From Crossaster papposus (Eukaryota > Echinodermata > Asteroidea > Velatida > Solasteridae), in assembly GCA_037893245.1 (NCBI GenBank), contig JBAIAA010001504.1, positions 78,931 to 142,930 of the forward strand: a stretch of 64,000 bases of DNA, given 5' to 3'. The first letter of the stretch is position 1. The number at the start of each line of letters is the position of its first letter. Shown one piece after another: positions 2,808-60,776 of this stretch. A model generated the notes under the pieces. That model did no database searches, had not been told where the DNA came from, and saw only the letters and a program-made list of their open reading frames with translations. A program made the position numbers and the translations under genes.

Positions 2808-2910
2808 AAACACATGATGTGGGAACAAGCCCTCGAGTTAAATATGTAAAGGGAAAGAAGTGTGCATAAGAAATAAACACATGATGTGGGAACAAGCCCT
2901 CGAGTTAAAT
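2808..2910. repeat. Doublet of 36-bp modules (two adjacent long units)
   Basis: Two 36-bp modules start at 2808 and 2875, exactly 67 bp apart, so two long units are directly adjacent. Each module lies between unit base 18 and base 19 and contains ACATGATGT, the A-allele core GTGGGAAC and the palindrome CTCGAG. The same doublet recurs at 5174 and 5241. These are the first modules in the window. Confidence 0.95.
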
Positions 2911-5173
2911 ATGTAAAGGGAAAGAAGTGTGCATAAGAAATATGTAAAGGGAAAGAAGTGTGCATAAGAAATATGTAAAGGGAAAGAAGTGTGCATAAGA
3001 AATATGTAAAGGGAAAGAAGTGTGCATAAGAAATATGTAAAGGGAAAGAAGTGTGCATAAGAAATATGTAAAGGGAAAGAAGTGTGCATAAGAAATATGT
3101 AAAGGGAAAGAAGTGTGCATAAGAAATATGTAAAGAGAAGGAAGTGTGCATAAGAAATATGTAAAGGGAAAGAAGTGTGCATAAGAAATATGTAAAGGGA
3201 AAGAAGTGTGCATAAGAAATATGTAAAGGGAAAGAAGTGTGCATAAGAAATATGTAAAGGGAAAGAAGTGTGCATAAGAAATATCTAAAGGGAAAGAAGT
3301 GTGCATAAGAAATATGTAAAGGGAAAGAAGTGTGCATAAGAAATATCTAAAGGGAAAGAAGTGTGCATAAGAAATATGTAAAGGGAAAGAAGTGTGCATA
3401 AGAAATATGTAAAGGGAAAGAAGTGTGCATAAGAAATATGTAAAGGGAAAGAAGTGTGCATAAGAAATATGTAAAGGGAAAGAAGTGTGCATAAGAAATA
3501 TGTAAAGGGAAAGAAGTGTGCATAAGAAATATGTAAAGGGAAAGAAGTGTGCATAAGAAATATGTAAAGGGAAAGAAGTGTGCATAAGAAATATGTAAAG
3601 GGAAAGAAGTGTGCATAAGAAATATGTAAAGGGAAAGAAGTGTGCATAAGAAATATGTAAAGGGAAAGAAGTGTGCATAAGAAATATGTAAAGGAAAAGA
3701 AGTGTGCATAAGAAATATGTAAAGGGAAAGAAGTGTGCATAAGAAATATGTAAAGGGGAAGAAGTGTGCATAAGAAATATGTAAAGGGAAAGAAGTGTGC
3801 ATAATAAATATGTAAAGGGAAAGAAGTGTGCATAAGAAATATGTAAAGGGAAAGAAGTGTGCATAAGAAATATGTAAAGGGAAAGAAGTGTGCATAAGAA
3901 ATATGTAAAGGGAAAGAAGTGTGCATAAGAAATATGTAAAGGGAAAGAAGTGTGCATAAGAAATATGTAAAGGGAAAGAAGTGTGCATAAGAAATATGTA
4001 AAGGGAAAGAAGTGTGCATAAGAAATATGTAAAGGGAAAGAAGTGTGCATAAGAAATATGTAAAGGGAAAGAAGTGTGCATAAGAAATATGTAAAGGGAA
4101 AGAAGTGTGCATAAGAAATATGTAAAGGGAAAGAAGTGTGCATAAGAAATATGTAAAGGGAAAGAAGTGTGCATAAGAAATATGTAAAGGGAAAGAAGTG
4201 TGCATAAGAAATATGTAAAGGGAAAGAAGTGTGCATAAGAAATATGTAAAGGGAAAGAAGTGTGCATAAGAAATATGTAAAGGGAAAGAAGTGTGCATAC
4301 GAAATATGTAAAGGGAAAGAAGTGTGCATAAGAAATATGTAAAGGGAAAGAAGTGTGCATAAGAAATATGTAAAGGGAAAGAAGTGTGCATAAGAAATAT
4401 GTAAAGGGAAAGAAGTGTGCATAAGAAATATGTAAAGGGAAAGAAGTGTGCATAAGAAATATGTAAAGGGAAAGAAGTGTGCATAAGAAATATGTAAAGG
4501 GAAAGAAGTGTGCATAAGAAATATGTAAAGGGAAAGAAGTGTGCATAAGAAATATGTAAAGGGAAAGAAGTGTGCATAAGAAATATGTAAAGGGAAAGAA
4601 GTGTGCATAAGAAATATGTAAAGGGAAAGAAGTGTGCATAAGAAATATGTAAAGGGAAAGAAGTGTGCATAAGAAATATGTAAAGGGAAAGAAGTGTGCA
4701 TAAGAAATATGTAAAGGGAAAGAAGTGTGCATAAGAAATATGTAAAGGGAAAGAAGTGTGCATAAGAAATATGTAAAGGGAAAGAAGTGTGCATAAGAAA
4801 TATGTAAAGGGAAAGAAGTGTGCATAAGAAATATGTAAAGGGAAAAAAGTGTGCATAAGAAATATGTAAAGGGAAAGAAGTGTGCATAAGAAATATGTAA
4901 AGGGAAAGAAGTGTGCATAAGAAATATGTAAAGGGAAAGAAGTGTGCATAAGAAATATGTAAAGGGAAAGAAGTGTGCATAAGAAATATGTAAAGGGAAA
5001 GAAGTGTGCATACGAAATATGTAAAGGGAAAGAAGTGTGCATAAGAAATATGTAAAGGGAAAGAAGTGTGCATAAGAAATATGTAAAGGGAAAGAAGTGT
5101 GCATAAGAAATATGTAAAGGGAAAGAAGTGTGCATAAGAAATATGTAAAGGGAAAGAAGTGTGCATAAGAAAT
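2808..5173. repeat. 2,366-bp higher-order repeat, copy 1
   Basis: The segment starts with the module doublet 2808/2875 and runs to the next doublet at 5174/5241. Its length is 76 units, two of them long (76 x 31 + 2 x 36 = 2,366). Markers shared with copy 2 at the same offset are the AGAAGG change at 3131 (matches 5497) and two CTAAAG changes at 3285 and 3347 (match 5651 and 5713). Each CTAAAG creates a minus-strand TAG, which is one reason long minus-strand frames break here. Confidence 0.85.
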
Positions 5174-5760
5174 AAACACATGATGTGGGAACAAGCCCTC
5201 GAGTTAAATATGTAAAGGGAAAGAAGTGTGCATAAGAAATAAACACATGATGTGGGAACAAGCCCTCGAGTTAAATATGTAAAGGGAAAGAAGTGTGCAT
5301 AAGAAATATGTAAAGGGAAAGAAGTGTGCATAAGAAATATGTAAAGGGAAAGAAGTGTGCATAAGAAATATGTAAAGGGAAAGAAGTGTGCATAAGAAAT
5401 ATGTAAAGGGAAAGAAGTGTGCATAAGAAATATGTAAAGGGAAAGAAGTGTGCATAAGAAATATGTAAAGGGAAAGAAGTGTGCATAAGAAATATGTAAA
5501 GAGAAGGAAGTGTGCATAAGAAATATGTAAAGGGAAAGAAGTGTGCATAAGAAATATGTAAAGGGAAAGAAGTGTGCATAAGAAATATGTAAAGGGAAAG
5601 AAGTGTGCATAAGAAATATGTAAAGGGAAAGAAGTGTGCATAAGAAATATCTAAAGGGAAAGAGGTGTGCATAAGAAATATGTAAAGGGAAAGAAGTGTG
5701 CATAAGAAATATCTAAAGGGAAAGAAGTGTGCATAAGAAATATGTAAAGGGAAAGAAGTG
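5174..5760. repeat. 2,366-bp higher-order repeat, copy 2 (partial)
   Basis: The copy begins with modules at 5174 and 5241. Markers at 5497, 5651 and 5713 lie exactly 2,366 bp after their partners in copy 1. Beyond about 5.76 kb the agreement fails: the variants expected near 6057 and 6117 are absent, and a private one appears near 6095. The right end is therefore set by the last shared marker and is approximate. Confidence 0.75.
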
Positions 5761-7787
5761 TGCATAAGAAATATGTAAAGGGAAAGAAGTGTGCATAAGA
5801 AATATGTAAAGGGAAAGAAGTGTGCATAAGAAATATGTAAAGGGAAAGAAGTGTGCATAAGAAATATGTAAAGGGAAAGAAGTGTGCATAAGAAATATGT
5901 AAAGGGAAAGAAGTGTGCATAAGAAATATGTAAAGGGAAAGAAGTGTGCATAAGAAATATGTAAAGGGAAAGAAGTGTGCATAAGAAATATGTAAAGGGA
6001 AAGAAGTGTGCATAAGAAATATGTAAAGGGAAAGAAGTGTGCATAAGAAATATGTAAAGGGAAAGAAGTGTGCATAAGAAATATGTAAAGGGAAGGAAGT
6101 GTGCATAAGAAATATGTAAAGGGAAAGAAGTGTGCATAAGAAATATGTAAAGGGAAAGAAGTGTGCATAAGAAATATGTAAAGGGAAAGAAGTGTGCATA
6201 AGAAATATGTAAAGGGAAAGAAGTGTGCATAAGAAATATGTAAAGGGAAAGAAGTGTGCATAAGAAATATGTAAAGGGAAAGAAGTGTGCATAAGAAATA
6301 TGTAAAGGGAAAGAAGTGTGCATAAGAAATATGTAAAGGGAAAGAAGTGTGCATAAGAAATATGTAAAGGGAAAGAAGTGTGCATAAGAAATATGTAAAG
6401 TGAAAGAAGTGTGCATAAGAAATATGTAAAGGGAAAGAAGTGTGCATAAGAAATATGTAAAGGGAAAGAAGTGTGCATAAGAAATATGTAAAGGGAAAGA
6501 AGTGTGCATAAGAAATATGTAAAGGGAAAGAAGTGTGCATAAGAAATATGTAAAGGGAAAGAAGTGTGCATAAGAAATATGTAAAGGGAAAGAAGTGTGC
6601 ATAAGAATTATGTAAAGGGAAAGAAGTGTGCATAAGAAATATGTAAAGGGAAAGAAGTGTACATAAGAAATATGTAAAGGGAAAGAAGTGTGCATAAGAA
6701 ATATGTAAAGGGAAAGAAGTGTGCATAAGAAATATGTAAAGGGAAAGAAGTGTGCATAAGAAATATGTAAAGGGAAAGAAGTGTGCATAAGAAATATGTA
6801 AAGGGAAAGAAGTGTGCATAAGAAATATGTAAAGGGAAAGAAGTGTGCATAAGAAATGTGTAAAGGGAAAGAAGTGTGCATAAGAAATATGTAAAGGGAA
6901 AGAAGTGTGCATAAGAAATATGTAAAGGGAAAGAAGTGTGCATAAGAAATATGTAAAGGGAAAGAAGTGTGCATAAGAAATATGTAAAGGGAAAGAAGTG
7001 TGCATAAGAAATATGTAAAGGGAAAGAAGTGTGCATAAGAAATATGTAAAGGGAAAGAAGTGTGCATAAGAAATATGTAAAGGGAAAGAAGTGTGCATAA
7101 GAAATATGTAAAGGGAAAGAAGTGTGCATAAGAAATATGTAAAGGGAAAGAAGTGTGCATAAGAAATATGTAAAGGGAAAGAAGTGTGCATAAGAAATAT
7201 GTAAAGGGAAAGAAGTGTGCATAAGAAATATGTAAAGGGAAAGAAGTGTGCATAAGAAATATGTAAAGGGAAAGAAGTGTGCATAAGAAATATGTAAATG
7301 GAAAGAAGTGTGCATAAGAAATATGTAAAGGGAAAGAAGTGTGCATAAGAAATATGTAAAGGGAAAGAAGTGTGCATAATAAATATGTAAAGGGAAAGAA
7401 GTGTGCATAAGAAATATGTAAAGGGAAAGAAGTGTGCATAATAAATATGTAAAGGGAAAGAAGTGTGCATAAGAAATATGTAAAGGGAAAGAAGTGTGCA
7501 TAAGAAATATGTAAAGGGAAAGAAGTGTGCATAAGAAATATGTAAAGGGAAAGAAGTGTGCATAAGAAATATGTAAAGGGAAAGAAGTGTGCATAAGAAA
7601 TATGTAAAGGGAAAGAAGTGTGCATAAGAAATATGTAAAGGGAAAGAAGTGTGCATAAGAAATATGTAAAGGGAAAGAAGTGTGCATAAGAAATATGTAA
7701 AGGGAAAGAAGTGTGCATAAGAAATATGTAAAGGGAAAGAAGTGTGCATAAGAAATATGTAAAGGGAAAGAAGTGTGCATAAGAAAT
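5761..7787. repeat. Module-free block with an older copy of the 1,338-bp repeat
   Basis: This block contains only 31-bp units and no module. From about 6661 it carries the marker series of the 1,338-bp repeat that follows. GTGTAC at 6661 lies 1,338 bp before 7999. The changes at 6858, 7299, 7380 and 7442 lie 1,369 bp before 8227, 8668, 8749 and 8811. The 31-bp shift means one unit was gained or lost between 6661 and 6858. The module that heads later copies is missing at the expected place (about 6450), so this copy is either ancestral or eroded. No genes are seen. Confidence 0.8.
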
Positions 7788-9125
7788 AAACACATGATGT
7801 GGGAACAAGCCCTCGAGTTAAATATGTAAAGGGAAAGAAGTGTGCATAAGAAATATGTATAGGGAAAGAAGTGTGCATAAGAAATATGTAAAGGGAAAGA
7901 AGTGTGCATAAGAAATATGTAAAGGGAAAGAAGTGTGCATAAGAAATATGTAAAGGGAAAGAAGTGTGCATAAGAAATATGTAAAGGGAAAGAAGTGTAC
8001 ATAAGAAATATGTAAAGGGAAAGAAGTGTGCATAAGAAATATGTAAAGGGAAAGAAGTGTGCATAAGAAATATGTAAAGGGAAAGAAGTGTGCATAAGAA
8101 ATATGTAAAGAGAAAGAAGTGTGCATAAGAAATATGTAAAGGGAAAGAAGTGTGCATAAGAAATATGTAAAGGGAAAGAAGTGTGCATAAGAAATATGTA
8201 AAGGGAAAGAAGTGTGCATAAGAAATGTGTAAAGGGAAAGAAGTGTGCATAAGAAATATGTAAAGGGAAAGAAGTGTGCATAAGAAATATGTAAAGGGAA
8301 AGAAGTGTGCATAAGAAATATGTAAAGGGAAAGAAGTGTGCATAAGAAATATGTAAAGGGAAAGAAGTGTGCATAAGAAATATGTAAAGGGAAAGAAGTG
8401 TGCATAAGAAATATGTAAAGGGAAAGAAGTGTGCATAAGAAATATGTAAAGGGAAAGAAGTGTGCATAAGAAATATGTAAAGGGAAAGAAGTGTGCATAA
8501 GAAATATGTAAAGGGAAAGAAGTGTGCATAAGAAATATGTAAAGGGAAAGAAGTGTGCATAAGAAATATGTAAAGGGAAAGAAGTGTGCATAAGAAATAT
8601 GTAAAGGGAAAGAAGTGTGCATAAGAAATATGTAAAGGGAAAGAAGTGTGCATAAGAAATATGTAAATGGAAAGAAGTGTGCATAAGAAATATGTAAAGG
8701 GAAAGAAGTGTGCATAAGAAATATGTAAAGGGAAAGAAGTGTGCATAATAAATATGTAAAGGGAAAGAAGTGTGCATAAGAAATATGTAAAGGGAAAGAA
8801 GTGTGCATAATAAATATGTAAAGGGAAAGAAGTGTGCATAAGAAATATGTAAAGGGAAAGAAGTGTGCATAAGAAATATGTAAAGGGAAAGAAGTGTGCA
8901 TAAGAAATATGTAAAGGGAAAGAAGTGTGCATAAGAAATATGTAAAGGGAAAGAAGTGTGCATAAGAAATATGTAAAGGGAAAGAAGTGTGCATAAGAAA
9001 TATGTAAAGGGAAAGAAGTGTGCATAAGAAATATGTAAAGGGAAAGAAGTGTGCATAAGAAATATGTAAAGGGAAAGAAGTGTGCATAAGAAATATGTAA
9101 AGGGAAAGAAGTGTGCATAAGAAAT
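7788..9125. repeat. 1,338-bp higher-order repeat, copy 1
   Basis: The copy is headed by a 36-bp module at 7788 and contains 42 units, one of them long (42 x 31 + 36 = 1,338). Internal markers are T at 7860, A at 7999, A at 8111, G at 8227, T at 8668, T at 8749 and T at 8811. All seven recur exactly 1,338 bp later in copy 2, so the two copies are identical at every variant position I checked. This is a classic recent tandem duplication of a multi-unit block. Confidence 0.93.
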
Positions 9126-10463
9126 AAACACATGATGTGGGAACAAGCCCTCGAGTTAAATATGTAAAGGGAAAGAAGTGTGCATAAGAAATATGTATAG
9201 GGAAAGAAGTGTGCATAAGAAATATGTAAAGGGAAAGAAGTGTGCATAAGAAATATGTAAAGGGAAAGAAGTGTGCATAAGAAATATGTAAAGGGAAAGA
9301 AGTGTGCATAAGAAATATGTAAAGGGAAAGAAGTGTACATAAGAAATATGTAAAGGGAAAGAAGTGTGCATAAGAAATATGTAAAGGGAAAGAAGTGTGC
9401 ATAAGAAATATGTAAAGGGAAAGAAGTGTGCATAAGAAATATGTAAAGAGAAAGAAGTGTGCATAAGAAATATGTAAAGGGAAAGAAGTGTGCATAAGAA
9501 ATATGTAAAGGGAAAGAAGTGTGCATAAGAAATATGTAAAGGGAAAGAAGTGTGCATAAGAAATGTGTAAAGGGAAAGAAGTGTGCATAAGAAATATGTA
9601 AAGGGAAAGAAGTGTGCATAAGAAATATGTAAAGGGAAAGAAGTGTGCATAAGAAATATGTAAAGGGAAAGAAGTGTGCATAAGAAATATGTAAAGGGAA
9701 AGAAGTGTGCATAAGAAATATGTAAAGGGAAAGAAGTGTGCATAAGAAATATGTAAAGGGAAAGAAGTGTGCATAAGAAATATGTAAAGGGAAAGAAGTG
9801 TGCATAAGAAATATGTAAAGGGAAAGAAGTGTGCATAAGAAATATGTAAAGGGAAAGAAGTGTGCATAAGAAATATGTAAAGGGAAAGAAGTGTGCATAA
9901 GAAATATGTAAAGGGAAAGAAGTGTGCATAAGAAATATGTAAAGGGAAAGAAGTGTGCATAAGAAATATGTAAAGGGAAAGAAGTGTGCATAAGAAATAT
10001 GTAAATGGAAAGAAGTGTGCATAAGAAATATGTAAAGGGAAAGAAGTGTGCATAAGAAATATGTAAAGGGAAAGAAGTGTGCATAATAAATATGTAAAGG
10101 GAAAGAAGTGTGCATAAGAAATATGTAAAGGGAAAGAAGTGTGCATAATAAATATGTAAAGGGAAAGAAGTGTGCATAAGAAATATGTAAAGGGAAAGAA
10201 GTGTGCATAAGAAATATGTAAAGGGAAAGAAGTGTGCATAAGAAATATGTAAAGGGAAAGAAGTGTGCATAAGAAATATGTAAAGGGAAAGAAGTGTGCA
10301 TAAGAAATATGTAAAGGGAAAGAAGTGTGCATAAGAAATATGTAAAGGGAAAGAAGTGTGCATAAGAAATATGTAAAGGGAAAGAAGTGTGCATAAGAAA
10401 TATGTAAAGGGAAAGAAGTGTGCATAAGAAATATGTAAAGGGAAAGAAGTGTGCATAAGAAAT
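9126..10463. repeat. 1,338-bp higher-order repeat, copy 2
   Basis: The copy is headed by a module at 9126. Markers at 9198, 9337, 9449, 9565, 10006, 10087 and 10149 all match copy 1 at an offset of 1,338. The next module lies at 10464, exactly one period on. I see no difference from copy 1, which implies a very recent amplification or an active homogenisation process. Confidence 0.93.
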
Positions 10464-11428
10464 AAACACATGATGTGGGAACAAGCCCTCGAGTTAAATA
10501 TGTAAAGGGAAAGAAGTGTGCATAAGAAATATGTATAGGGAAAGAAGTGTGCATAAGAAATATGTAAAGGGAAAGAAGTGTGCATAAGAAATATGTAAAG
10601 GGAAAGAAGTGTGCATAAGAAATATGTAAAGGGAAAGAAGTGTGCATAAGAAATATGTAAAGGGAAAGAAGTGTGCATAAGAAATATGTAAAGGGAAAGA
10701 AGTGTGCATAAGAAATATGTAAAGGGAAAGAAGTGTGCATAAGAAATATGTAAAAGGAAAGAAGTGTGCATAAGAAATATGTAAAGGGAAAGAAGTGTGC
10801 ATAAGAAATATGTAAAGGGAAAGAAGTGTGCATAAGAAATATGTAAAGGGAAAGAAGTGTGCATAAGAAATATGTAAAGGGAAAGAAGTGTGCATACGAA
10901 ATATGTAAAGGGAAAGAAGTGTGCATAAGAAATATGTAAAGGGAAAAAAGTGTGCATAATAAATATGTAAAGGGAAAGAAGTGTGCATAAGAAATATGTA
11001 AAGGGAAAGAAGTGTGCATAAGAAATATGTAAAGGGAAAGAAGTGTGCATAAGAAATATGTAAAGGGAAAGAAGTGTGCATAAGAAATATGTAAAGGGAA
11101 AGAAGTGTGCATAAGAAATATGTAAAGGGAAAGAAGTGTGCATAAGAAATATGTAAAGGGAAAGAAGTGTGCATAAGAAATATGTAAAGGGAAAGAAGTG
11201 TGCATAAGAAATATGTAAAGGGAAAGAAGTGTGCATAAGAAATATGTAAAGGGAAAGAAGTGTGCATAAGAAATATGTAAATGGAAAGAAGTGTGCATAA
11301 GAAATAATAAAGGGAAAGAAGTGTGCATAAGAAATATGTAAAGGGAAAGAAGTGTGCATAAGAAATATGTAAAGGGAAATAAGTGTGCATAAGAAATATG
11401 TAAAGGGAAAGAAGTGTGCATAAGAAAT
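10464..11428. repeat. 1,338-bp higher-order repeat, truncated and diverged copy 3
   Basis: The block is headed by a module at 10464 and shares the first marker (T at 10536, one period after 9198). It lacks the next marker expected at 10675, and the following module comes after only 965 bp, at 11429. It includes one 30-bp unit near 11304 (AATAATAAAGGG form). The array therefore changes organisation within about 100-200 bp of 10536, most likely at a recombination breakpoint. Confidence 0.7.
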
Positions 11429-11660
11429 AAACACATGATGTGGGAACAAGCCCTCGAGTTAAATATGTAAAGGGAAAGAAGTGTGCATAAGAAATATGTA
11501 AAGGGAAAGAAGTGTGCATAAGAAATATGTAAAGGGAAAGAAGTGTGCATAAGAAATAAACACATGATGTGGGAACAAGCCCTCGAGTTAAATATGTAAA
11601 GGGAAAGAAGTGTGCATAAGAAATAAACACATGATGTGGGAACAAGCCCTCGAGTTAAAT
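11429..11660. repeat. Module triad (129 + 67 bp spacing)
   Basis: Modules start at 11429, 11558 and 11625. The spacing is 129 bp (one long unit plus two short units from start to start), then 67 bp (adjacent long units). The same 129 + 67 triad recurs at 14091/14220/14287, 14663/14792/14859, 17357/17486/17553, 20019/20148/20215, 22959/23088/23155, 25313/25442/25509 and 28253/28382/28449. It is the landmark of the complex higher-order repeat in 11.4-30.4 kb. Confidence 0.95.
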
Positions 11661-14286
11661 ATGTAAAGGGAAAGAAGTGTGCATAAGAAATATGTAAAGG
11701 GAAAGAAGTGTGCATCAGAAATATATAAAGGGAAAGAAGTGTGCATAAGAAATATGTAAAGGGAAAGAAGTGTGCATAAGAAATATGTAAAGGGAAAGAA
11801 GTGTGCATAAGAATTATGTAAAGGTAAAGAAGTGTGCATAAGAAATATGTAAAGGGAAAGAAGTGTGCATAAGAAATAATAAAGGGAAAGAAGTGTGCAT
11901 AAGAAATATGTAAAGGGAAAGAAGTGTGCATAAGAAATATGTAAAGGGAAAGAAGTGTGCATAAGAAATATGTAAATGGAAAGAAGTGTGCATAAGAAAT
12001 ATGTAAAGGGAAAGAAGTGTGCATAAGAAATAATAAAGGGAAAGAAGTGTGCATAAGAAATATGTAAAGGGAAAGAAGTGTGCATAAGAAATATGTAAAG
12101 GGAAAGAAGTGTGCATAATGAATATGTAAAGGGAAAGAAGTGTGCATAAGAAATATGTAAAGGGAAAGAAGTGTGCATAAGAAATATGTAAAGGGAAAGA
12201 AGTGTGCATAAGAAATATGTAAAGGGAAAGAAGTGTGCATAATAAATATGTAAAGGGAAAGAAGTGTGCATAAGAAATATGTAAAGGGAAAGAAGTGTGC
12301 ATAAGAAATATGTAAAGGGAAAGAAGTGTGCATAAGAAATATGTAAAGGGAAAGAAGTGTGCATAAGAAATATGTAAAGGGAAAGAAGTGTGCATAAGAA
12401 ATATGTAAAGGGAAAGAAGTGTGCATAAGAAATATGTAAAGGGAAAGAAGTGTGTATAAGAAATATGTAAAGGGAAAGATGTGTGCATAAGAAATAAACA
12501 CATGATGTGGGAACAAGCCCTCGAGTTAAATATGTAAAGGCAAAGAAGTGTGCATAAGAAATATGTAAAGGGAAAGAAGTGTGCATAAGAAATATGTAAA
12601 GGGAAAGAAGTGTGCATAAGAAATAAACACATGATGTGGGAACAAGCCCTCGAGTTAAACATGTAAAGGGAAAGAAGTGTGCATAAGAAATATGTAAAGG
12701 GAAAGAAGTGTGCATAAGAAATATGTAAAGGGAAAGAAGTGTGCATAAGAAATATGTAAAGGGAAAGAAGTGTGCATAAGAAATATGTAAAGGGAAAGAA
12801 GTGTGCATAAGAAATATGTAAAGGGAAAGAAGTGTGCATAAGAAATATGTAAAGGGAAAGAAGTGTGCATAAGAAATATGTAAAGGGAAAGAAGTGTGCA
12901 TAAGAAATATGTAAAGGGAAAGAAGTGTGCATAAGAAATATGTAAAGGGAAAGAAGTGTGCATAAGAAATATGTAAAGGGAAAGAAGTGTGCATAAGAAA
13001 TATGTAAAGGGAAAGAAGTGTGCATAAGAAATATGTAAAGGGAAAGAAGTGTGCATAAGAAATATGTAAAGGGAAAGAAGTGTGCATAAGAAATATGTAA
13101 AGGGAAAGAAGTGTGCATAAGAAATATGTAAAGGGAAAGAAGTGTGCATAAGAAATATGTAAAGGGAAAGAAGTGTGCATAAGAAATATGTAAAGGGAAA
13201 GAAGTGTGCATAAGAAATATGTAAAGGGAAAGAAGTGTGCATAAGAAATAAACACATGATGTCGGGACAAGCCCTCGAGTTAAATATGTAAAGGGAAAGA
13301 AGTGTGCATAAGAAATAATAAAGGGAAAGAAGTGTGCATAAGAAATATGTAAAGGGAAAGAAGTGTGCATAAGAAATATGTAAAGGGAAAGAAGTGTGCA
13401 TAAGAAATATGTAAAGGGAAAGAAGTGTGCCTAAGAAATATGTAAAGGGAAAGAAGTGTGCATAAGAAATATGTAAAGGGAAAGAAGTGTGCATAAGAAA
13501 TATGTAAAGGGAAAGAAGTGTGCATAAGAAATATGTAAAGGGAAAGTAGTGTGCATAAGAAATATGTAAAGGGAAAGAAGTGTGCATAAGAAATATGTAA
13601 AGGGAAAGAAGTGTGCATAAGAAATATGTAAAGGGAAAGAAGTGTGCATAAGAAATATGTAAAGGGAAAGAAGTGTGCATAAGAAATATGTAAAGGGAAA
13701 GAAGTGTGCATAAGAAATATGTAAAGGGAAAGAAGTGTGCATAAGAAATATGTAAAGGGAAAGAAGTGTGCATAAGAAATATGTAAAGGGAAAGAAGTGT
13801 GCATAAGAAATATGTAAAGGGAAAGAAGTGTGCATAAGAAATATGTAAAGGGAAAGAAGTGTGCATAAGAAATATGTAAAGGGAAAGAAGTGTGCATAAG
13901 AAATATGTAAAGGGAAAGAAGTGTGCATAAGAAATATGTAAAGGGAAAGAAGTGTGCATAAGAAATATGTAAAGGGAAAGAAGTGTGCATAAAAAATATG
14001 TAAAGGGAAAGAAGTGTGCATAAGAAATATGTAAAGGGAAAGAAGTGTGCATAAGAAATATGTAAAGGGAAAGAAGTGTGCATAAGAAATAAAGACATGA
14101 TGTGGGAACAAGCCCTCGAGTTAAATATGTAAAGGGAAAGAAGTGTGCATAAAAAATATGTAAAGGGAAAGAAGTGTGCATAAGAAATATGTAAAGGGAA
14201 AGAAGTGTGCATAAGAAATAAACACATGATGTGGGAACAAGCCCTCGAGTTAAATATGTAAAGGGAAAGAAGTGTGCATAAGAAAT
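11625..14286. repeat. Complex higher-order repeat, copy a (2,662 bp)
   Basis: The copy runs from the last module of one triad to the last module of the next. Module intervals are 871, 129, 625, 841, 129 and 67 bp. The B-allele module is at 13250, followed at +181 by the GCCTAAG marker (13431). The interval 12625-13250 is 62 bp (two units) shorter than in copies b-e. The module at 14091 has AAAGAC instead of AAACAC, and the one at 14287 has TTCGAG instead of CTCGAG. Confidence 0.85.
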
Positions 14287-14858
14287 AAACACATGATGTG
14301 GGAACAAGCCTTCGAGTTAAATATGTAAAGGGAAAGAAGTGTGCATAAGAAATATGTAAAGGGAAAGAAGTGTGCATAAGAAATATATAAAGGGAAAGAA
14401 GTGTGCATAAGAAATATGTAAAGGGAAAGAAGTGTGCATAAGAAATATGTAAAGGGAAAGAAGTGTGCATAAGAAATATGTAAAGGGAAAGAAGTGTGCA
14501 TAAGAAATATGTAAAGGGAAAGAAGTGTGCATAAGAAATAATAAAGGGAAAGAGGTGTGCATAAGAAATATGTAAAGGGAAAGAAGTGTGCATAAGAAAT
14601 ATGTAAAGGGAAAGAAGTGTGCATAAGAAATATGTAAAGGGAAAGAAGTGTGCATAAGAAATAAACACATGATGTGGGAACAAGCCCTCGAGTTAAATAT
14701 GTAAAGGGAAAGAAGTGTGCATAAGAAATATGTAAAGGGAAAGAAGTGTGCATAAGAAATATGTAAAGGGAAAGAAGTGTGCATAAGAAATAAACACATG
14801 ATGTGGGAACAAGCCCTCGAGTTAAATATGTAAAGGGAAAGAAGTGTGCATAAGAAAT
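14287..14858. repeat. Extra module triad between copies a and b
   Basis: A second triad (14663, 14792, 14859) follows the first (14091, 14220, 14287) after only 376 bp. It breaks the regular order of the higher-order repeat. This is best read as a local duplication, or as a junction left by unequal exchange between two copies. Otherwise it is made of 31-bp units, including a 30-bp one near 14540 and the private GAGGTG change just after it. Confidence 0.8.
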
Positions 14859-17552
14859 AAACACATGATGTGGGAACAAGCCCTCGAGTTAAATATGTAA
14901 AGGGAAAGAAGTGTGCATAAGAAATATGTAAAGGGAAAGAAGTGTGCATAAGAAATATATAAAGGGAAAGAAGTGTGCATAAGAAATATGTAAAGGGAAA
15001 GAAGTGTGCATAAGAAATATGTAAAGGGAAAGAAGTGTGCATAAGAATTATGTAAAGGTAAAGAAGTGTGCATAAGAAATATGTAAAGGGAAAGAAGTGT
15101 GCATAAGAAATAATAAAGGGAAAGAAGTGTGCATAAGAAATATGTAAAGGGAAAGAAGTGTGCATAAGAAATATGTAAAGGGAAAGAAGTGTGCATAAGA
15201 AATATGTAAATGGAAAGAAGTGTGCATAAGAAATATGTAAAGGGAAAGAAGTGTGCATAAGAAATAATAAAGGGAAAGAAGTGTGCATAAGAAATATGTA
15301 AAGGGAAAGAAGTGTGCATAAGAAATATGTAAAGGGAAAGAAGTGTGCATAATGAATATGTAAAGGGAAAGAAGTGTGCATAAGAAATATCTAAAGGGAA
15401 AGAAGTGTGCATAAGAAATATGTAAAGGGAAAGAAGTGTGCATAAGAAATATGTAAAGGGAAAGAAGTGTGCATAAGAAATATGTAAAGGGAAAGAAGTG
15501 TGCATAAGAAATATGTAAAGGGAAAGAAGTGTGCATAAGAAATATGTAAAGGGAAAGAAGTGTGCATAAGAAATATGTAAAGGGAAAGAAGTGTGCATAA
15601 GAAATATGTAAAGGGAAAGAAGTGTGCATAAGAAATATGTAAAGGGAAAGAAGTGTGCATAAGAAATATGTAAAGGGAAAGAAGTGTGCATAAGAAATAT
15701 GTAAAGGGAAAGAAGTGTGCATAAGAAATAAACACATGATGTGGGAACAAGCCCTCGAGTTAAATATGTAAAGGGAAAGAAGTGTGCATAAGAAATATGT
15801 AAAGGGAAAGAAGTGTGCATAAGAAATATGTAAAGGGAAAGAAGTGTGCATAAGAAATAAACACATGATGTGGGAACAAGCCCTCGAGTTAAACATGTAA
15901 AGGGAAAGAAGTGTGCATAAGAAATATGTAAAGGGAAAGAAGTGTGCATAAGAAATATGTAAAGGGAAAGAAGTGTGCATAAGAAATATGTAAAGGGAAA
16001 GAAGTGTGCATAAGAAATATGTAAAGGGAAAGAAGTGTGCATAAGAAATATGTAAAGGGAAAGAAGTGTGCATAAGAAATATGTAAAGGGAAAGAAGTGT
16101 GCATAAGAAATATGTAAAGGGAAAGAAGTGTGCATAAGAAATATGTAAAGGGAAAGAAGTGTGCATAAGAAATATGTTAAGGGAAAGAAGTGTGCATAAG
16201 AAATATGTAAAGGGAAAGAAGTGTGCATAAGAAATATGTAAAGGGAAAGAAGTGTGCATAAGAAATATGTAAAGGGAAAGAAGTGTGCATAAGAAATATG
16301 TAAAGGGAAAGAAGTGTGCATAAGAAATATGTAAAGGGAAAGAAGTGTGCATAAGAAATATGTAAAGGGAAAGAAGTGTGCATAAGAAATATGTAAAGGG
16401 AAAGAAGTGTGCATAAGAAATATGTAAAGGGAAAGAAGTGTGCATAAGAAATATGTAAAGGGAAAGAAGTGTGCATAAGAAATATGTAAAGGGAAAGAAG
16501 TGTGCATAAGAAATATGTAAAGGGAAAGAAGTGTGCATAAGAAATAAACACATGATGTCGGGACAAGCCCTCGAGTTAAATATGTAAAGGGAAAGAAGTG
16601 TGCATAAGAAATATGTAAAGGGAAAGAAGTGTGCATAAGAAATATGTAAAGGGAAAGAAGTGTGCATAAGAAATATGTAAAGGGAAAGAAGTGTGCCTAA
16701 GAAATATGTAAAGGGAAAGAAGTGTGCAAAAGAAATATGTAAAGGGAAAGAAGTGTGCATAAGAAATATGTAAAGGGAAAGAAGTGTGCATAAGAAATAT
16801 GTAAAGGGAAAGAAGTGTGCATAAGAAATATGTAAAGGGAAAGAAGTGTGCATAAGAAATATGTAAAGGGAAAGAAGTGTGCATAAGAAATATGTAAAGG
16901 GAAAGAAGTGTGCATAAGAAATATGTAAAGGGAAAGAAGTGTGCATAAGAAATATGTAAAGGGAAAGAAGTGTGCATAAGAAATATGTAAAGGGAAAGAA
17001 GTGTGCATAAGAAATATGTAAAGGGAAAGAAGTGTGCATAAGAAATATGTAAAGGGAAAGAAGTGTGCATAAGAAATATGTAAAGGGAAAGAAGTGTGCA
17101 TAAGAAATATGTAAAGGGAAAGAAGTGTGCATAAGAAATATGTAAAGGGAAAGAAGTGTGCATAAGACATATGTAAAGGGAAAGAAGTGTGCATAAGAAA
17201 TATGTAAAGGGAAAGAAGTGTGCATAAAAAATATGTAAAGGGAAAGAAGTGTGCATAAGAAATATGTAAAGGGAAAGAAGTGTGCATAAGAAATATGTAA
17301 AGGGAAAGAAGTGTGCATAAGAAATATGTAAAGGGAAAGAAGTGTGCATAAGAAATAAACACATGATGTGGGAACAAGCCCTCGAGTTAAATATGTAAAG
17401 GGAAAGAAGTGTGCATAACAAATATGTAAAGGGAAAGAAGTGTGCATAAGAAATATGTAAAGGGAAAGAAGTGTGCATAAGAAATAAACACATGATGTGG
17501 GAACAAGCCCTCGAGTTAAATATGTAAAGGGAAAGAAGTGTGCATAAGAAAT
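14859..17552. repeat. Complex higher-order repeat, copy b (2,694 bp)
   Basis: Module intervals are 871, 129, 687, 811, 129 and 67 bp. The B-allele module is at 16546 and the GCCTAAG marker at 16697 (+151). The +151 spacing, against +181 in copies a, d and e, shows loss of one 30-bp unit, a state shared only with copy c. Copies b and c also share a GTGCAAAAG variant (16728 and 19390), so they form a closest pair. Confidence 0.88.
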
Positions 17553-20214
17553 AAACACATGATGTGGGAACAAGCCGTCGAGTTAAATATGTAAAGGGAA
17601 AGAAGTGTGCATAAGAAATATGTAAAGGGAAAGAAGTGTGCATAAGAAATATGTAAAGGGAAAGAAGTGTGCATAAGAAATATGTAAAGGGAAAGAAGTG
17701 TGCATAAGAAATATGTAAAGGGAAAGAAGTGTGCATAAGGAATATGTAAAGGGAAAGAAGTGTGCATAAGAAATAATCAAGGGAAAGAAGTGTGCATAAG
17801 AAATATGTAAAGGGAAAGAAGTGTGCATAAGAAATATGTAAAGGGAAAGAAGTGTGCATAAGAAATATATAAAGGAAAAGAAGTGTGCATAAGAAATATG
17901 TAAAGGGAAAGAAGTGTGCATAAGAAATATGTAAAGGGAAAGAAGTGTGCATAAGAATTATGTAAAGGTAAAGAAGTGTGCATAAGAAATATGTAAAGGG
18001 AAAGAAGTGTGCATAAGAAATAATAAAGGGAAAGAAGTGTGCATAAGAAATATGTAAAGGGAAAGAAGTGTGCATAAGAAATATGTAAAGGGAAAGAAGT
18101 GTGCATAAGAAATATGTAAATGGAAAGAAGTGTGCATAAGAAATATGTAAAGGGAAAGAAGTGTGCATAAGAAATAATAAAGGGAAAGAAGTGTGCATAA
18201 GAAATATGTAAAGGGAAAGAAGTGTGCATAAGAAATATGTAAAGGGAAAGAAGTGTGCATAATGAATATGTAAAGGGAAAGAAGTGTGCATAAGAAATAT
18301 GTAAAGGGAAAGAAGTGTGCATAAGAAATATGTAAAGGGAAAGAAGTGTGCATAAGAAATATGTAAAGGGAAAGAAGTGTGCATAAGAAATAAACACATG
18401 ATGTGGGAACAAGCCCTCGAGTTAAATATGTAAAGGGAAAGAAGTGTGCATAAGAAATATGTAAAGGGAAAGAAGTGTGCATAAGAAATATGTAAAGGGA
18501 AAGAAGTGTGCATAAGAAATAAACACATGATGTGGGAACAAGCCCTCGAGTTAAACATGTAAAGGGAAAGAAGTGTGCATAAGAAATATGTAAAGGGAAA
18601 GAAGTGTGCATAAGAAATATGTAAAGGGAAAGAAGTGTGCATAAGAAATATGTAAAGGGAAAGAAGTGTGCATAAGAAATATGTAAAGGGAAAGAAGTGT
18701 GCATAAGAAATATGTAAAGGGAAAGAAGTGTGCATAAGAAATATGTAAAGGGAAAGAAGTGTGCATAAGAAATATGTAAAGGGAAAGAAGTGTGCATAAG
18801 AAATATGTAAAGGGAAAGAAGTGTGCATAAGAAATATGTTAAGGGAAAGAAGTGTGCATAAGAAATATGTAAAGGGAAAGAAGTGTGCATAAGAAATATG
18901 TAAAGGGAAAGAAGTGTGCATAAGAAATATGTAAAGGGAAAGAAGTGTGCATAAGAAATATGTAAAGGGAAAGAAGTGTGCATAAGAAATATGTAAAGGG
19001 AAAGAAGTGTGCATAAGAAATATGTAAAGGGAAAGAAGTGTGCATAAGAAATATGTAAAGGGAAAGAAGTGTGCATAAGAAATATGTAAAGGGAAAGAAG
19101 TGTGCATAAGAAATATGTAAAGGGAAAGAAGTGTGCATAAGAAATATGTAAAGGGAAAGAAGTGTGCATAAGAAATATGTAAAGGGAAAGAAGTGTGCAT
19201 AAGAAATAAACACATGATGTCGGGACAAGCCCTCGAGTTAAATATGTAAAGGGAAAGAAGTGTGCATAAGAAATATGTAAAGGGAAAGAAGTGTGCATAA
19301 GAAATATGTAAAGGGAAAGAAGTGTGCATAAGAAATATGTAAAGGGAAAGAAGTGTGCCTAAGAAATATGTAAAGGGAAAGAAGTGTGCAAAAGAAATAT
19401 GTAAAGGGAAAGAAGTGTGCATAAGAAATATGTAAAGGGAAAGAAGTGTGCATAAGAAATATGTAAAGGGAAAGAAGTGTGCATAAGAAATATGTAAAGG
19501 GAAAGAAGTGTGCATAAGAAATATGTAAAGGGAAAGAAGTGTGCATAAGAAATATGTAAAGGGAAAGAAGTGTGCATAAGAAATATGTAAAGGGAAAGAA
19601 GTGTGCATAAGAAATATGTAAAGGGAAAGAAGTGTGCATAAGAAATATGTAAAGGGAAAGAAGTGTGCATAAGAAATATGTAAAGGGAAAGAAGTGTGCA
19701 TAAGAAATATGTAAAGGGAAAGAAGTGTGCATAAGAAATATGTAAAGGGAAAGAAGTGTGCATAAGAAATATGTAAAGGGAAAGAAGTGTGCATAAGAAA
19801 TATGTAAAGGGAAAGAAGTGTGCATAAGACATATGTAAAGGGAAAGAAGTGTGCATAAGAAATATGTAAAGGGAAAGAAGTGTGCATAAAAAATATGTAA
19901 AGGGAAAGAAGTGTGCATAAGAAATATGTAAAGGGAAAGAAGTGTGCATAAGAAATATGTAAAGGGAAAGAAGTGTGCATAAGAAATATGTAAAGGGAAA
20001 GAAGTGTGCATAAGAAATAAACACATGATGTGGGAACAAGCCCTCGAGTTAAATATGTAAAGGGAAAGAAGTGTGCATAACAAATATGTAAAGGGAAAGA
20101 AGTGTGCATAAGAAATATGTAAAGGGAAAGAAGTGTGCATAAGAAATAAACACATGATGTGGGAACAAGCCCTCGAGTTAAATATGTAAAGGGAAAGAAG
20201 TGTGCATAAGAAAT
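17553..20214. repeat. Complex higher-order repeat, copy c (2,662 bp)
   Basis: Module intervals are 839, 129, 687, 811, 129 and 67 bp. Modules at 18392, 18521, 19208, 20019, 20148 and 20215 lie exactly 2,662 bp after 15730, 15859, 16546, 17357, 17486 and 17553 in copy b, as do the point markers 16697/19359 and 16728/19390. The heading module carries GTCGAG in place of CTCGAG. Confidence 0.9.
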
Positions 20215-38734: not shown

Positions 38735-39669
38735 AAACACATGATGTGGGAACAAGCCCTCGAGTTAAATATGTAAAGGGAAAGAAGTGTGCATAAGAAA
38801 TATGTAAAGGGAAAGAAGTGTGCATAAGAAATATGTAAAGGGAAAGAAGTGTGCATAAGAAATATGTAAAGGGAAAGAAGTGTGCATAAGAAATATGTAA
38901 AGGGAAAGAAGTGTGCATAAGAAATATGTAAAGGGAAAGAAGTGTGCATAAGAAATATGTAAAGGGAAAGAAGTGTGCATAAGAAATATGTAAAGGGAAA
39001 GAAGTGTGCATAAGAAATATGTAAAGGGAAAGAAGTGTGCATAAGAAATATGTAAAGGGAAAGAAGTGTGCATAAGAAATATGTAAAGGGAAAGAAGTGT
39101 GCATAAGAAATATGTAAAGGGAAAGAAGTGTGCATAAGAAATATGTAAAGGGAAAGAAGTGTGCATAAGAAATATGTAAAGGGAAAGAAGTGTGCATAAG
39201 AAATATGTAAAGGGAAAGAAGTAAGCATAAGAAATATGTAAAGGGAAAGAAGTGTGCATAAGAAATATGTAAAGGCAAAGAAGTGTGCATAAGAAATATG
39301 TAAAGGCAAAGAAGTGTGCATAAGAAATATGTAAAGGGAAAGAAGTGTGCATAAGAAATATGTAAAGGGAAAGAAGTGTGCATAAGAAATATGTAAAGGG
39401 AAAGAAGTGTGCATAAGAAATATGTAAAGGAAAAGAAGTGTGCATAAGAAATATGTAAAGGGAAAGAAGTGTGCATAAGAAATATGTAAAGGGAAAGAAG
39501 TGTGCATAAGAAATATGTAAAGGGAAAGAAGTGTGCATAAGAAATATGTAAAGGGAAAGAAGTGTGCATAAGAAATATGTAAAGGGAAAGAAGTGTGCAT
39601 AAGAAATATGTAAAGGGAAAGAAGTGTGCATAAGAAATATGTAAAGGGAAATAAGTGTGCATAAGAAAT

Positions 39670-44145: not shown

Positions 44146-45855
44146 AAACACATGATGTGGGAACAAGCCCTCGAGTTAAATATGTAAAGGGAAAGAAGTG
44201 TGCATAAGAAATATGTAAAGGGAAATAAGTGTGCATAAGAAATATGTAAAGGGAAAGAAGTGTGCATAAGAAATATGTAAAGGGAAAGAAGTGTGCATAA
44301 GAAATAAACACATGATGTGGGAACAAGCCCTCGAGTTAAATATGTAAAGGGAAAGAAGTGTGCATAAGAAATATGTAAAGGGAAATAAGTGTGCATAAGA
44401 AATATGTAAAGGGAAAGAAGTGTGCATAAGAAATATGTAAAGGGAAAGAAGTGTGCATAAGAAATATGTAAAGGGAAAGAAGTGTGCATAAGAAATATGT
44501 AAAGGGAAAGAAGTGTGCATAAGAAATATGTAAAGGGAAAGAAGTGTGCATAAGAAATAAACACATGATGTGGGAACAAGCCCTCGAGTTAAATATGTAA
44601 AGGGAAAGAAGTGTGCATAAGAAATATGTAAAGGGAAAGAAGTGTGCATAAGAAATATGTAAAGGGAAAGAAGTGTACATAAGAAATATGTAAAGGGAAA
44701 GAAGTGTGCATAAGAAATATGTAAAGGGAAAGAAGTGTGCATAAGAAATATGTAAAGGGAAAGAAGTGTGCATAAGAAATATGTAAAGGAAAAGAAGTGT
44801 GCATAAGAAATATGTAAAGGGAAAGAAGTGTGCATAAGAAATATGTAAAGGGAAAGAAGTGTGCATAAGAAATATGTAAAGGGAAAGAAGTGTGCATACA
44901 AAATATGTAAAGGGAAAGAAGTGTGCATAAGAAATATGTAAAGGGAAAGAAGTGTGCATAAGAAATATGTAAAGGGAAAGAAGTGTGCATAAGAAATATG
45001 TAAAGGGAAAGAAGTGTGCATAAGAAATATGTAAAGGGAAAGAAGTGTGCATAAGAAATATGTAAAGGGAAAGAAGTGTGCATAAGAAATATGTAAAGGG
45101 AAAGAAGTGTGCATAAGAAATATGTAAAGGGAAAGAAGTGTGCATAAGAAATATGTAAAGGGAAAGAAGTGTGCATAAGAAATATGTAAAGGGAAAGAAG
45201 TGTGCATAAGAAATATGTAAAGGGAAAGAAGTGTGCATAAGAAATATGTAGAGGGAAAGAAGTGTGCATAAGAAATATGTAAAGGGAAAGAAGTGTGCAT
45301 AAGAAATATGTAAAGGGAAAGAAGTGTGCATAAGAAATATGTAAAGGGAAAGAAGTGTGCATAAGAAATATGTAAAGGGAAAGAAGTGTGCATAAGAAAT
45401 ATGTAAAGGGAAAGAAGTGTGCATAAGAAATATGTAAAGGGAAAGAAGTGTGCATAAGAAATATGCAAAGGGAAAGAAGTGTGCATAAGAAATATGTAAA
45501 GGGAAAGAAGTGTGCATAAGAAATATGTAAAGGGAAAGAAGTTTGCATAAGAAATATGTAAAGGGAAAGAAGTGTGCATAAGAAATATGTAAAGGGAAAG
45601 AAGTGTGCATACGAAATATGTAAAGGGAAAGAAGTGTGCATAAGAAATATGTAAAGGGAAAGAAGTGTGCATACGAAATATGTAAAGGGAAAGAAGTGTG
45701 CATACGAAATATGTAAAGGGAAAGAAGTGTGCATAAGAAATATGTAAAGGGAAAGAAGTGTGCATAAGAAATATGTAAAGGGAAAGAAGTGTGCATAAGA
45801 AATATGTAAAGGGAAAGAAGTGTGCATAAGAAATATGTAAAGGGAAAGAATTGTG
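44146..45855. repeat. Triplet higher-order repeat, copy 4, a 3,345-bp-offset duplicate of copy 2
   Basis: The modules are 44146, 44306 and 44559, and the marker is at 44899. At least eight point markers match copy 2 at a constant offset of 3,345. The match stops at about 45851, exactly where a zone of single-base indels begins. No module occurs after 44594 until 50178. Confidence 0.88.
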
Positions 45856-53100: not shown

Positions 53101-53492
53101 AAGAAGTGTGCATAAGAAATATGTAAAGGGAAAGAAGTGTGCATAAGAAATATGTAAAGGGAAAGAAGTTTGCATAAGAAATATGTAAAGGGACAGAAGT
53201 GTGCATAAGAAATATGTAAAAGGAAAGAAGTGTGCATAAGAAATATGTAAAGGGAAAGAAGTGTGCATAAGAAATATGTAAAGGCAAAGAAGTGTGCATA
53301 AGAAATATGTAAAGGGAAAGAAGTGTGCATAATAATCATGTAAAGGGAAAGAAGTGTGCATAAGAAATATGTAAAGGGAAAGAAGTGTGTATAAGAAATA
53401 TGTAAAGGGAAAGAAGTGTGCATAAGAAATATGTAAAGGGAAAGAAGTGTGCATAAGAAATATGTAAAGGGAAAGAAGTGTGCATAAGAAAT

Positions 53493-55088
53493 AAACACAT
53501 GATGTCGGGACAAGCCCTCGAGTTAAATATGTAAAGGGAAAGAAGTGTGCATAAGAAATATGTGAAGGGAAAGAAGTGTGCATAAGAAATATGTAAAGGG
53601 AAAGAAGTGTGCATAAGAAATATGTAAAGGGAAAGAAGTGTGCATAAGAAATATGTAAAGGGAAAGAAGTGTGCATAAGAAATAAACACATGATGTCGGG
53701 ACAAGCCCTCGAGTTAAATATGTAAAGGGAAAGAAGTGTGCATAAGAAATATGTAAAGGGAAAGAAGTGTGCATAAGAAATATGTAAAGGGAAAGAAGTG
53801 TGCATAAGAAATAAACACATGATGTCGGGACAAGCCCTCGAGTTAAATATGTAAAGGGAAAGAAGTGTGCATAAGAAATATGTAAAGGGAAAGAAGTGTG
53901 CATAAGAAATATGTAAAGGGAAAGAAGTGTGCATAAGAAATATGTAAAGGGAAAGAAGTGTGCATAAGAAATATGTAAAGGGAAAGAAGTGTGCATAAGA
54001 AATATGTAAAGGGAAAGAAGTGTGCATAGGAAATATGTAAAGGGAAAGAAGTGTGCATAAGAAATATGTAAAGGGAAAGAAGTGTGCATAAGAAATATGT
54101 AAAGGGAAAGAAGTGTGCATAAGAAATATGTAAAGGGAAAGAAGTGTGCATAAGAAATATGTAAAGGGAAAGAAGTGTGCATAAGAAATATGTAAAGGGA
54201 AAGAAGTGTGCATAAGAAATATGTAAAGGGAAAGAAGTGTGCATAAGAAATATGTAAAGGGAAAGAAGTGTGAATAAGAAATATGTAAAGGGAAAGAAGT
54301 GTGCATAAGAAATATGTAGAGGGAAAGAAGTGTGCATAAGAAATATGTAAAGGGAAAGAAGTGTGCATAAGAAATATGTAAAAGGAAAGAAGTGTGCATA
54401 AGAAATATGTAAAGGGAAAGAAGTGTGCATAAGAAATATGTAAAGGGAAAGAAGTGTGCATAAGAAATATGTAAAGGGAAAGAAGTGTGCATAAGAAATA
54501 TGTAAAGGGAAAGAAGTGTGCATAAGAAATATGTAAAGGGAAAGAAGTGTGCATAAGAAATATGTAAAGGGAAAGAAGTGTGCATAAGAAATATGTAAAG
54601 GGAAAGAAGTGTGCATAAGAAATATGTAAAGGGAAAGAAGTGTGCATAAGAAATATGTAAAGGGAAAGAAGTGTGCATAAGAAATATGTAAAGGGAAAGA
54701 AGTGTGCATAAGAAATATGTAAAGGGAAAGAAGTGTGCATAAGAAATATGTAAAGGGAAAGAAGTGTGCATAAGAAATATGTAAAGGGAAAGAAGTGTGC
54801 ATAAGAAATATGTAAAGGTAAAGAAGTGTGCATAAGAAATATGTAAAGGGAAAGAAGTGTGCATAAGAAATATGTAAAGGGAAAGAAGTGTGCATAAGAA
54901 ATATGTAAAGGGAAAGATGTGTGCATAATAAATATGTAAAGGGAAAGAAGTGTGCATAAGAAATATGTAAAGTGAAAGAAGTGTGCATAAGAAATATGTA
55001 AAGGGAAAGAAGTGTGCATAAGAAATATGTAAAGGGAAAGAAGTGTGCATAAGAAATATGTAAAGGGAAAGAAGTGTGCATAAGAAAT
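53493..55088. repeat. 1,596-bp repeat of a B-allele module triad
   Basis: B modules at 53493, 53684 and 53813 (191 + 129 bp) are repeated at 55089, 55280 and 55409, all at an offset of 1,596 bp (3 x 36 + 48 x 31). Beyond the triads, internal markers drift (the CATAGG unit is at +216 in one copy and +154 in the other), so unit gain or loss has occurred within the copies. Confidence 0.8.
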
Positions 55089-59700: not shown

Positions 59701-60740
59701 AAGTGTGCATAAGAAATATGTAAAGGGAAAGAAGTGTGCATAAGAAATATATAAAGGGAAAGAAGTGTGCATAAGAAATATGTAAAGGGAAAGAAGTGTG
59801 CATAAGAAATATGTAAAGGGAAAGAAGTGTGCATAAGAAATATGTAAAGGGAAAGAAGTGTGCATAGGAAATATGTAAAGGGAAAGAAGTGTGCATAAGA
59901 AATATGTAAAGGGAAAGAAGTGTGCATAAGAAATATGTAAAGGGAAAGAAGTGTGCATAAGAAATATGTAAAGGGAAAGAAGTGTGCATAAGAAATATGT
60001 AAAGGGAAAGAAGTGTGCATAAGAAATATGTAAAGGGAAAGAAGTGTGCATAAGAAATATGTAAAGGGAAAGAAGTGTGCATAAGAAATATGTAAAGGGA
60101 AAGAAGTGTGCATAAGAAATATGTAAAGGGAAAGAAGTGTGCATAAGAAATATGTAAAGGGAAAGAAGTGTGCATAAGAAATATGTAAAGGGAAAGAAGT
60201 GTGCATAAGAAATATGTAAAGGGAAAGAAGTGTGCATAAGAAATATGTAAAGGGAAAGAAGTGTGCATAAGAAATATGTAAAGGGAAAGAAGTGTGCATA
60301 AGAAATATGTAAACGGAAAGAAGTGTGCATAAGAAATATGTAAAGGGAAAGAAGTGTGCATAAGAAATATGTAAAGGGAAAGAAGTGTGCATAAGAAATA
60401 TGTAAACGGAAAGAAGTGTGCATAAGAAATATGTAAAGGGAAAGAAGTGTGCATAAGAAATATGTAAAGGGAAAGAAGTGTGCATAAGAAATATGTAAAG
60501 GGAAAGAAGTGTGCATAAGAAATATGTAAAGGGAAAGAAGTGTGCATAAGAAATATGTAAAGGGACAGAAGTGTGCATAAGAAATATGTAAAGGGAAAGA
60601 AGTGTGAATAAGAAATATGTAAAGGGAAAGAAGTGTGCATAAGAAATATGTAAAGGGAAAGAAGTGTGCATAAGAAATATGTAAAGGGAAAGAGGTGTGC
60701 ATAAGAAATATGTAAAGGGAAAGAAGTGTGCATAAGAAAT
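56753..60740. repeat. Right part of the B-allele domain
   Basis: Modules lie at 58711, 59212 and 59403 only. The long unit before module 58711 has an extra A (CATAAAAAAAT). A marker cluster (GTGTAC at 57676, then GGAGTG near 57701) recurs 4,051 bp later at 61727 and 61752. The offset equals four modules, 126 units and that one extra base, so a duplicated segment spans this zone and the right end of the window. Confidence 0.75.
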
Positions 60741-60776
60741 AAACACATGATGTGGGAACAAGCCCTCGAGTTAAAT
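60741..60776. repeat. 36-bp module, last of 84, typical A allele
   Basis: This entry serves as the type description of the module. It starts AAACACATGATGTGGGAAC, continues through CAAGCC and CTCGAG, and ends TTAAAT. It contains an inverted repeat ACAT-G-ATGT, a short GGG/CCC stem potential, and CTCGAG with one CpG (two CpGs in the B allele). The last four bases AAAT repeat the four bases just before the module, so the module is bounded by AAAT direct repeats. It has no terminal inverted repeats or coding capacity. Its minus strand carries the only TAA of the long unit. Confidence 0.93.

Follow-up and report, generated by a model that had tools for sequence, protein, structure and literature searches.

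Nested higher-order repeats and monomer length variants are found in alpha satellite and in other satellite arrays. The locus described here, a 64,000-base stretch of DNA (hereafter, the window), shares with arrays of the alpha satellite type its near-identical monomers, variants that are carried in multi-unit blocks, and haplotypes that are common to the copies of a block; unlike them, it has a monomer of just 31 bp, and its main variant is one length difference, a 36-bp module in one slot of the unit. The satellite library of Meloidogyne chitwoodi and Meloidogyne fallax consists of ~170-bp monomers in simple and higher-order arrays, and a fixed short motif marks the point at which one satellite monomer has entered others (PMC3694981). 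The coexistence of simple and higher-order forms is shared with our locus, and insertion at a fixed short motif resembles the fixed slot seen here; the Meloidogyne junctions, however, lie within conserved boxes, one of them CENP-B-box-like, whereas our module matches that motif no better than shuffles do (PMC3694981). An account of sciarids describes M-31 of Trichomegalosphys pubescens as a 31-bp tandem unit and reports that M-22 arrays at the chromosome ends of Rhynchosciara americana have M-16 mixed in among their units; segmental duplications were deduced in that work (PMC7694509). By description, M-31 is like our unit in its length of 31 bp, and M-16 within M-22 arrays, with its segmental duplications, can be likened to module units within a 31-bp array (PMC7694509). 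For our locus, the most likely reading is ordinary, unusually readable satellite evolution, in which a monomer length variant has been carried by block duplication.

The window is one unbroken 31-bp satellite array, long, head to tail and made of near-identical units as expected of satellite DNA, and most likely comes from a eukaryote. Segmentation by profile-loop dynamic programming divided it into 1,969 units, of which 1,527 have the exact 31-bp consensus; Tandem Repeats Finder reported the 31-bp array at 1-63990, plus 11 smaller overlapping rows. The + strand is purine-rich, with a GC skew of 0.67-0.80 per 2-kb window. The segmentation model consisted of a 31-bp unit with an optional 36-bp module, permitted in one slot only, and it placed the module in 84 of the 1,969 units (82 units of 67 bp, one of 66 and one of 68), as the last 36 bases of the host unit (35 in the 66-bp unit). 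The positions of these units and of the larger features are collected in Table 1.

Table 1. Positions of the satellite array, the module-bearing units and the higher-order features in the window.
Feature	Position	Strand	Remarks
31-bp satellite array, consensus GAAGTGTGCATAAGAAATATGTAAAGGGAAA	1..64000	+	1,969 units, fills window
36-bp module AAACACATGATGTGGGAACAAGCCCTCGAGTTAAAT, all 84 copies, first to last	2808..60776	+	segmentation
Left AAATA of first module (5-bp boundary direct repeat)	2804..2808	+	right copy 2840-2844
Host units 1-10, starts	2777, 2844, 5143, 5210, 7757, 9095, 10433, 11398, 11527, 11594	+	
Host units 11-20, starts	12465, 12594, 13219, 14060, 14189, 14256, 14632, 14761, 14828, 15699	+	
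Host units 21-30, starts	15828, 16515, 17326, 17455, 17522, 18361, 18490, 19177, 19988, 20117	+	
Host units 31-40, starts	20184, 21271, 21400, 22087, 22928, 23057, 23124, 23872, 24714, 24843	+	
Host units 41-50, starts	25282, 25411, 25478, 26565, 26694, 27381, 28222, 28351, 28418, 29290	+	
Host units 51-60, starts	29419, 30292, 36343, 38704, 39639, 39799, 40052, 40770, 40930, 41183	+	
Host units 61-70, starts	42860, 43020, 43273, 44115, 44275, 44528, 50147, 50741, 50931, 51773	+	
Host units 71-80, starts	51964, 52837, 53462, 53653, 53782, 55058, 55249, 55378, 56282, 56721	+	
Host units 81-84, starts	58679, 59181, 59372, 60710	+	
Three module units, 1,338 bp apart, one per higher-order block	7757..10499	+	
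Higher-order region, period ~2.66 kb	11398..30358	+	homologous module groups of 5-6
Four three-module clusters, 160/253-bp spacing	39639..44594	+	offsets 1,131, 3,221, 3,345 bp
X..X..X module cluster	53462..53848	+	unit strings

Because the segmentation permits the module in that slot only, the slot was re-checked with plain anchors. Anchors on the 5' and 3' ends of the module gave 84 matches each on the + strand, and the 3' anchor had no match on the - strand of the window. The 11 bases upstream of the module are GCATAAGAAAT in 81 of the 84 copies (point or length variants in 3) and the 11 bases downstream are ATGTAAAGGGA in 79 (single-base variants in 5). Consensus-module k-mers of 8, 9, 10 and 12 bp that the unit lacks are confined to the 84 module units when both strands of the window are searched. 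Spacing between modules is irregular, ranging from 1 to 194 units. An earlier note on this DNA had counted 84 modules in one slot (after unit base 18, in its phase), a count that segmentation and anchors both reproduce, and had correctly placed the first module start and the last module end, as the segmentation shows. The same note had described an AAAT direct repeat at the module borders; the repeat is present, but its length is not 4 bp, as the maximal repeat is AAATA, 5 bp. Excision between the two boundary copies does restore the 31-bp consensus exactly, as had been proposed and as a table of direct repeats confirms. The AAATA repeat probably belongs to the originating event, because the chance of a boundary repeat of at least 5 bp is only ~0.022 at the composition of the window.

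When the 67-bp unit is treated as a circle, it shows 10 pairs of direct repeats of 4 bp or longer, which together permit 20 deletions of 8-59 bp. An exact product was detected in the window for the 36-bp AAATA deletion alone, with 1,593 copies (i.e., the ordinary 31-bp junction); the other 19 deletions, including four others across 5-bp repeats and the reciprocal AAATA deletion, had no exact junctions in the window, in a search that diverged products would escape but beside which odd-length units were listed separately. As the window has no other exact deletion products, and no module fragment of at least 8 bp elsewhere, a recurrent deletion process seems a poor fit. The earlier claim that all 84 modules descend from one event is thus supported by the single slot, by the finding of one of 20 deletion products and by haplotypes that track the blocks (see below), and we regard one origin of the length change, with spread through block duplication, as very probable.

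Unit variants recur at distances of 1,338, 2,366, 2,662, 3,221 and 3,345 bp, among others, and form nested higher-order repeats; that is, multi-unit blocks contain the variants in the same order, as judged with shuffled-order controls. In the region with a period of ~2.66 kb, modules form clusters, for example M..C, X and M..MG (letters denote module haplotypes and dots denote 31-bp units), with as many as six homologous copies of one position and, in some groups, shared private variants. Homology among the four three-module clusters was aligned at 3,221 and 3,345 bp, and the 1,131-bp relation comes from spacing alone. Compared with its homologous copy at 59181-59438, the X..X..X cluster has an additional 3-unit block, which holds its third module. 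Adjacent module units form 10 pairs, compared with 3.5 expected at random, and runs of them reach a maximum of two.

The array was self-aligned at the unit level, with all module units coded as one symbol, and standard scoring was set at +1.0 for module-module pairs, -1.0 for a module against a 31-bp unit and -1.5 for other unit mismatches. Tile-wise alignment of 70 tile pairs yielded 72 module-module pairs and no module-versus-31 column, with 46 of 1,038 31-bp pairs different. The addition of nearer offsets (93 tile pairs, standard scoring) gave 86 module-module pairs, again with no module-versus-31 column, and 55 of 1,173 31-bp pairs different. A whole-matrix alignment produced 68 module-module pairs, no module-versus-31 pair and 24 gap columns with 16 different module units; it was replaced by the tile-wise alignments because it missed most of the families at 38-60 kb. 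An ungapped alignment produced 33 and none, respectively. In the controls, the matrix maximum, 132 for the real array, fell to 6.5-7.5 when unit order was shuffled (three shuffles), and one shuffle gave no tile-wise alignments at threshold 8. Statistical power is modest here: were modules to vary as fast as 31-bp units do, finding no module-versus-31 pair among 72 would have a probability of 0.038, and the 95% upper bound for such a difference is 4.1% per pair, with pairs that are not independent. Low-rate gene conversion of short tracts may occur.

Neutral scoring, in which both module scores were 0, gave 14 module-versus-31 columns, and module-module pairs then numbered 56 (64 at threshold 8). 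Unit strings were printed for eight comparisons that cover all 14 columns, several of which lie in shifted pairs. By eye, each of the 14 reads either as a shift by whole units (1 to 8 of them) or as the 3-unit block, and in no case do two copies with both flanks in register differ cleanly by the 36 bp. At 12217/18361 and 12310/18490, the same M..C pair is found 8 units farther along; columns 12403-12594/21271-21498, 18330-18490/21271-21467 and 19146-19177/22087-22154 involve the same modules, 1-2 units apart as aligned; at 51029/51964, an X module is offset by 2 units; and at 53782/59501, the third X is part of the extra 3-unit block. The ungapped alignment contained six rows in which a whole unit was absent, and unit strings show the case near 22087 to be a one-unit shift. 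Modules fell into 33 groups (70 tile pairs) or 28 groups (93 tile pairs) by tile-wise standard scoring, and into 43 (threshold 10) or 37 (threshold 8) by neutral scoring. These counts are inflated by missed homology because each tile pair yields its best alignment only; hence, we take ~30 as a rough upper figure for the separate block positions of modules.

Module haplotypes provide an independent check of homology because they were left out of the alignment. The exact haplotype was common to 62 of 72 homologous pairs, compared with 1,335 of 3,486 among all pairs, a level that was reached by none of 2,000 permutations; in the 93-tile-pair alignment, haplotypes agreed in 72 of 86 homologous pairs. 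Tracking is imperfect, as the haplotype differs in 10 of the 35 homologous pairs with a non-consensus module. A terminal T-to-C variant is exclusive to one block position, where all five copies have it, and a C-to-G variant is present in five of the six copies of another.

One further haplotype (X, GTCGGGAC) has two linked changes and is found in two separate higher-order families between 13219 and 59438, the first with five copies (13.2-27.4 kb) and the second with thirteen (50.7-59.4 kb). It links both families through descent or conversion.

The lack of module-versus-31 pairs and the haplotypes that follow blocks indicate that the module spread by block duplication and not by repeated excision or insertion, a point on which the earlier note had taken no position. 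Our proposal is that one unit of a 31-bp array would have changed length once, by 36 bp, across the 5-bp AAATA repeat, more likely by a gain (i.e., a 31-bp unit acquired the 36 bp through insertion or template switch), after which the 67-bp unit would have multiplied passively. Local duplication of few-unit blocks would have created clusters with spacings of 67, 129, 160, 191 and 253 bp, while duplication of blocks of ~1.0-3.3 kb would have created the nested higher-order repeats, with module presence and haplotype travelling along with the block. All of the clusters may have come from few-unit duplications, and we infer that the molecular cause was unequal exchange, slippage or break-induced copying. 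The module acts as a clean length marker within a nearly uniform satellite; array turnover here would proceed by whole-unit blocks in two size ranges, and an insert would be gained or lost in place rarely, if ever. The locus is a useful calibration case and leaves the accepted picture of satellite evolution unchanged.

The earlier note had considered that deletion and insertion fit equally well. This is right for the junction, as a 5-bp AAATA repeat has the form of a target-site duplication and is equally expected from microhomology deletion, but several indirect signs point more to insertion into an array of 31-bp units. Module-free units outnumber module units 22 to 1, runs of module units are limited to two, and base C accounts for 7 of 36 positions in the module versus 1 of 31 in the unit. 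These signs are not decisive, and we lean towards the view that insertion into a 31-bp array came first. It is possible, though doubtful, that the 67-bp unit is ancestral and that one microhomology deletion between the AAATA copies gave rise to a 31-bp unit that took over, leaving the 84 module units as relics. Such a deletion gives back the 31-bp consensus exactly, and the higher diversity of the module (pi of 0.028, versus 0.006 in the unit part that accompanies it) could mean that the module is old. However, the window has no array of 67-bp units, and module-unit runs are never above two. The unit part of the 67-bp units is also not more diverse than the 31-bp units (0.0061 versus 0.0120), as relics might be; with one representative per group, the values are 0.0095 and 0.0112 in neighbours (95% range, 0.004-0.020), a small difference of a kind that concerted evolution can erase. 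Variable sites number 7 of 36 in the module and 5 of 31 in the unit part, and it is a few haplotypes of intermediate frequency that raise the module diversity to 0.028. This higher diversity may have arisen because the unit part is homogenised by surrounding 31-bp units that are unable to reach the module, or it may reflect an older module.

Turning from the direction of the length change to the nature of the module, we consider it very improbable that selection maintains the module as a box for protein binding, with a CENP-B-box-like role in the array. The module contains CTCGAG, the sole 6-bp palindrome of the 67-bp consensus (74 exact copies), an 11-bp inverted repeat, CACATGATGTG (64 exact copies), and the only CpG of the 67-bp consensus, and the unit consensus is without a 6-bp palindrome, the CACATGATGTG inverted repeat or a CpG. 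The core motif of the CENP-B box is NTTCGNNNNANNCGGGN. The best match of the module, at 5 of 9 core bases, is attained by 989 and 994 of 1,000 shuffles, and the array is not placed among CENP-B-box satellites; the common X variant (GTCGGGAC, 18 copies) disrupts the outer bases of CACATGATGTG, and the irregular module spacing also argues against a binding box. A hairpin structure was rejected, as the module folds no better than shuffles. We think it very improbable that the module, with its CpG and 6-bp palindrome, is a functional landmark used by a satellite-binding protein or DNA methylation; if it were, module-carrying blocks would be favoured during array turnover.

A reading in which the 67-bp unit is an old dimer (31 + 36), with the module as its second, diverged monomer, is highly unlikely. 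By eye, ATG...GGGAA..AAG...AAAT can be placed in register with the unit, but the local alignment score between module and unit is 21, below the 22.9 that dinucleotide-shuffled modules reach on average (p 0.79), with p values of 0.41 without AAAT, 0.67 for a variant module and 0.12 to 0.71 on the reverse strand. Homology between module and unit was thus rejected. That the module is a short element, mobile or inserting repeatedly, with this slot as its target and a target duplication of 4-5 bp, is scarcely credible: AAATA flanks both sides of the module and weak AAC/GTT ends can be seen by eye, but no longer terminal inverted repeat is, the module is at no other position in the window, with no fragment outside the 84 units and no dispersed copies with their own boundaries, its copies and haplotypes follow block duplications, and, to our knowledge, 31-32 bp is far below the length of any known transposon.

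Searches of a few collections beyond the window identified no relative of either sequence. Rfam at gathering thresholds had no matches in the window; a unit 18-mer and a module 19-mer had no exact match each against viral contigs; and a 134-base piece with two modules had no match to plasmids and phages by BLAST, whose low-complexity filter may mask such sequence. A module 17-mer matched 25 stretches in genome contigs, all prokaryotic, with whole-module agreement of at best 27 of 36, and several of the 25 contexts resemble each other. The wider context was compared for two matches, L009 and L018, and the other 23 were compared over their 36 bases. The match in L009 lies in a 340-aa ORF, which we take to be RecA, and that in L018 lies in an unrelated ORF. 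As ~30 chance matches are estimated for the 17-mer in this collection, the 25 were rejected as relatives and taken as coincidence. Literature searches with a unit 21-mer, and with six k-mers drawn from unit and module on both strands, found no paper with these letters. The repeat of PMC3170258 is intronic and unrelated to the satellite, and the Meloidogyne telomere repeats of PMC10844300 and PMC12643312 are other repeats than the 31-bp satellite.

Three segments of the array stand out. At 30483-34326, there are 124 exact consensus units in succession, compared with a longest run of ~26 (maximum of 54 in 500 trials) under independent placement of variants, which suggests local recent amplification or an assembly effect. 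At 45835-47883, limits that were set after the data were seen, 18 of 66 units have a length of neither 31 nor 67, compared with 31 of 1,903 elsewhere. Many of these odd-length units are due to homopolymer changes (GGG to GG or GGGG), and the segment looks like unpolished long-read sequence or one with a locally different history. Finally, a 30-bp unit beginning AATAAAGGG (A in place of TG) and its derivative AATCAAGGG are recurrent in 11306-28700, coinciding with the region of 2.66-kb blocks, and the sole further copy is at 855.
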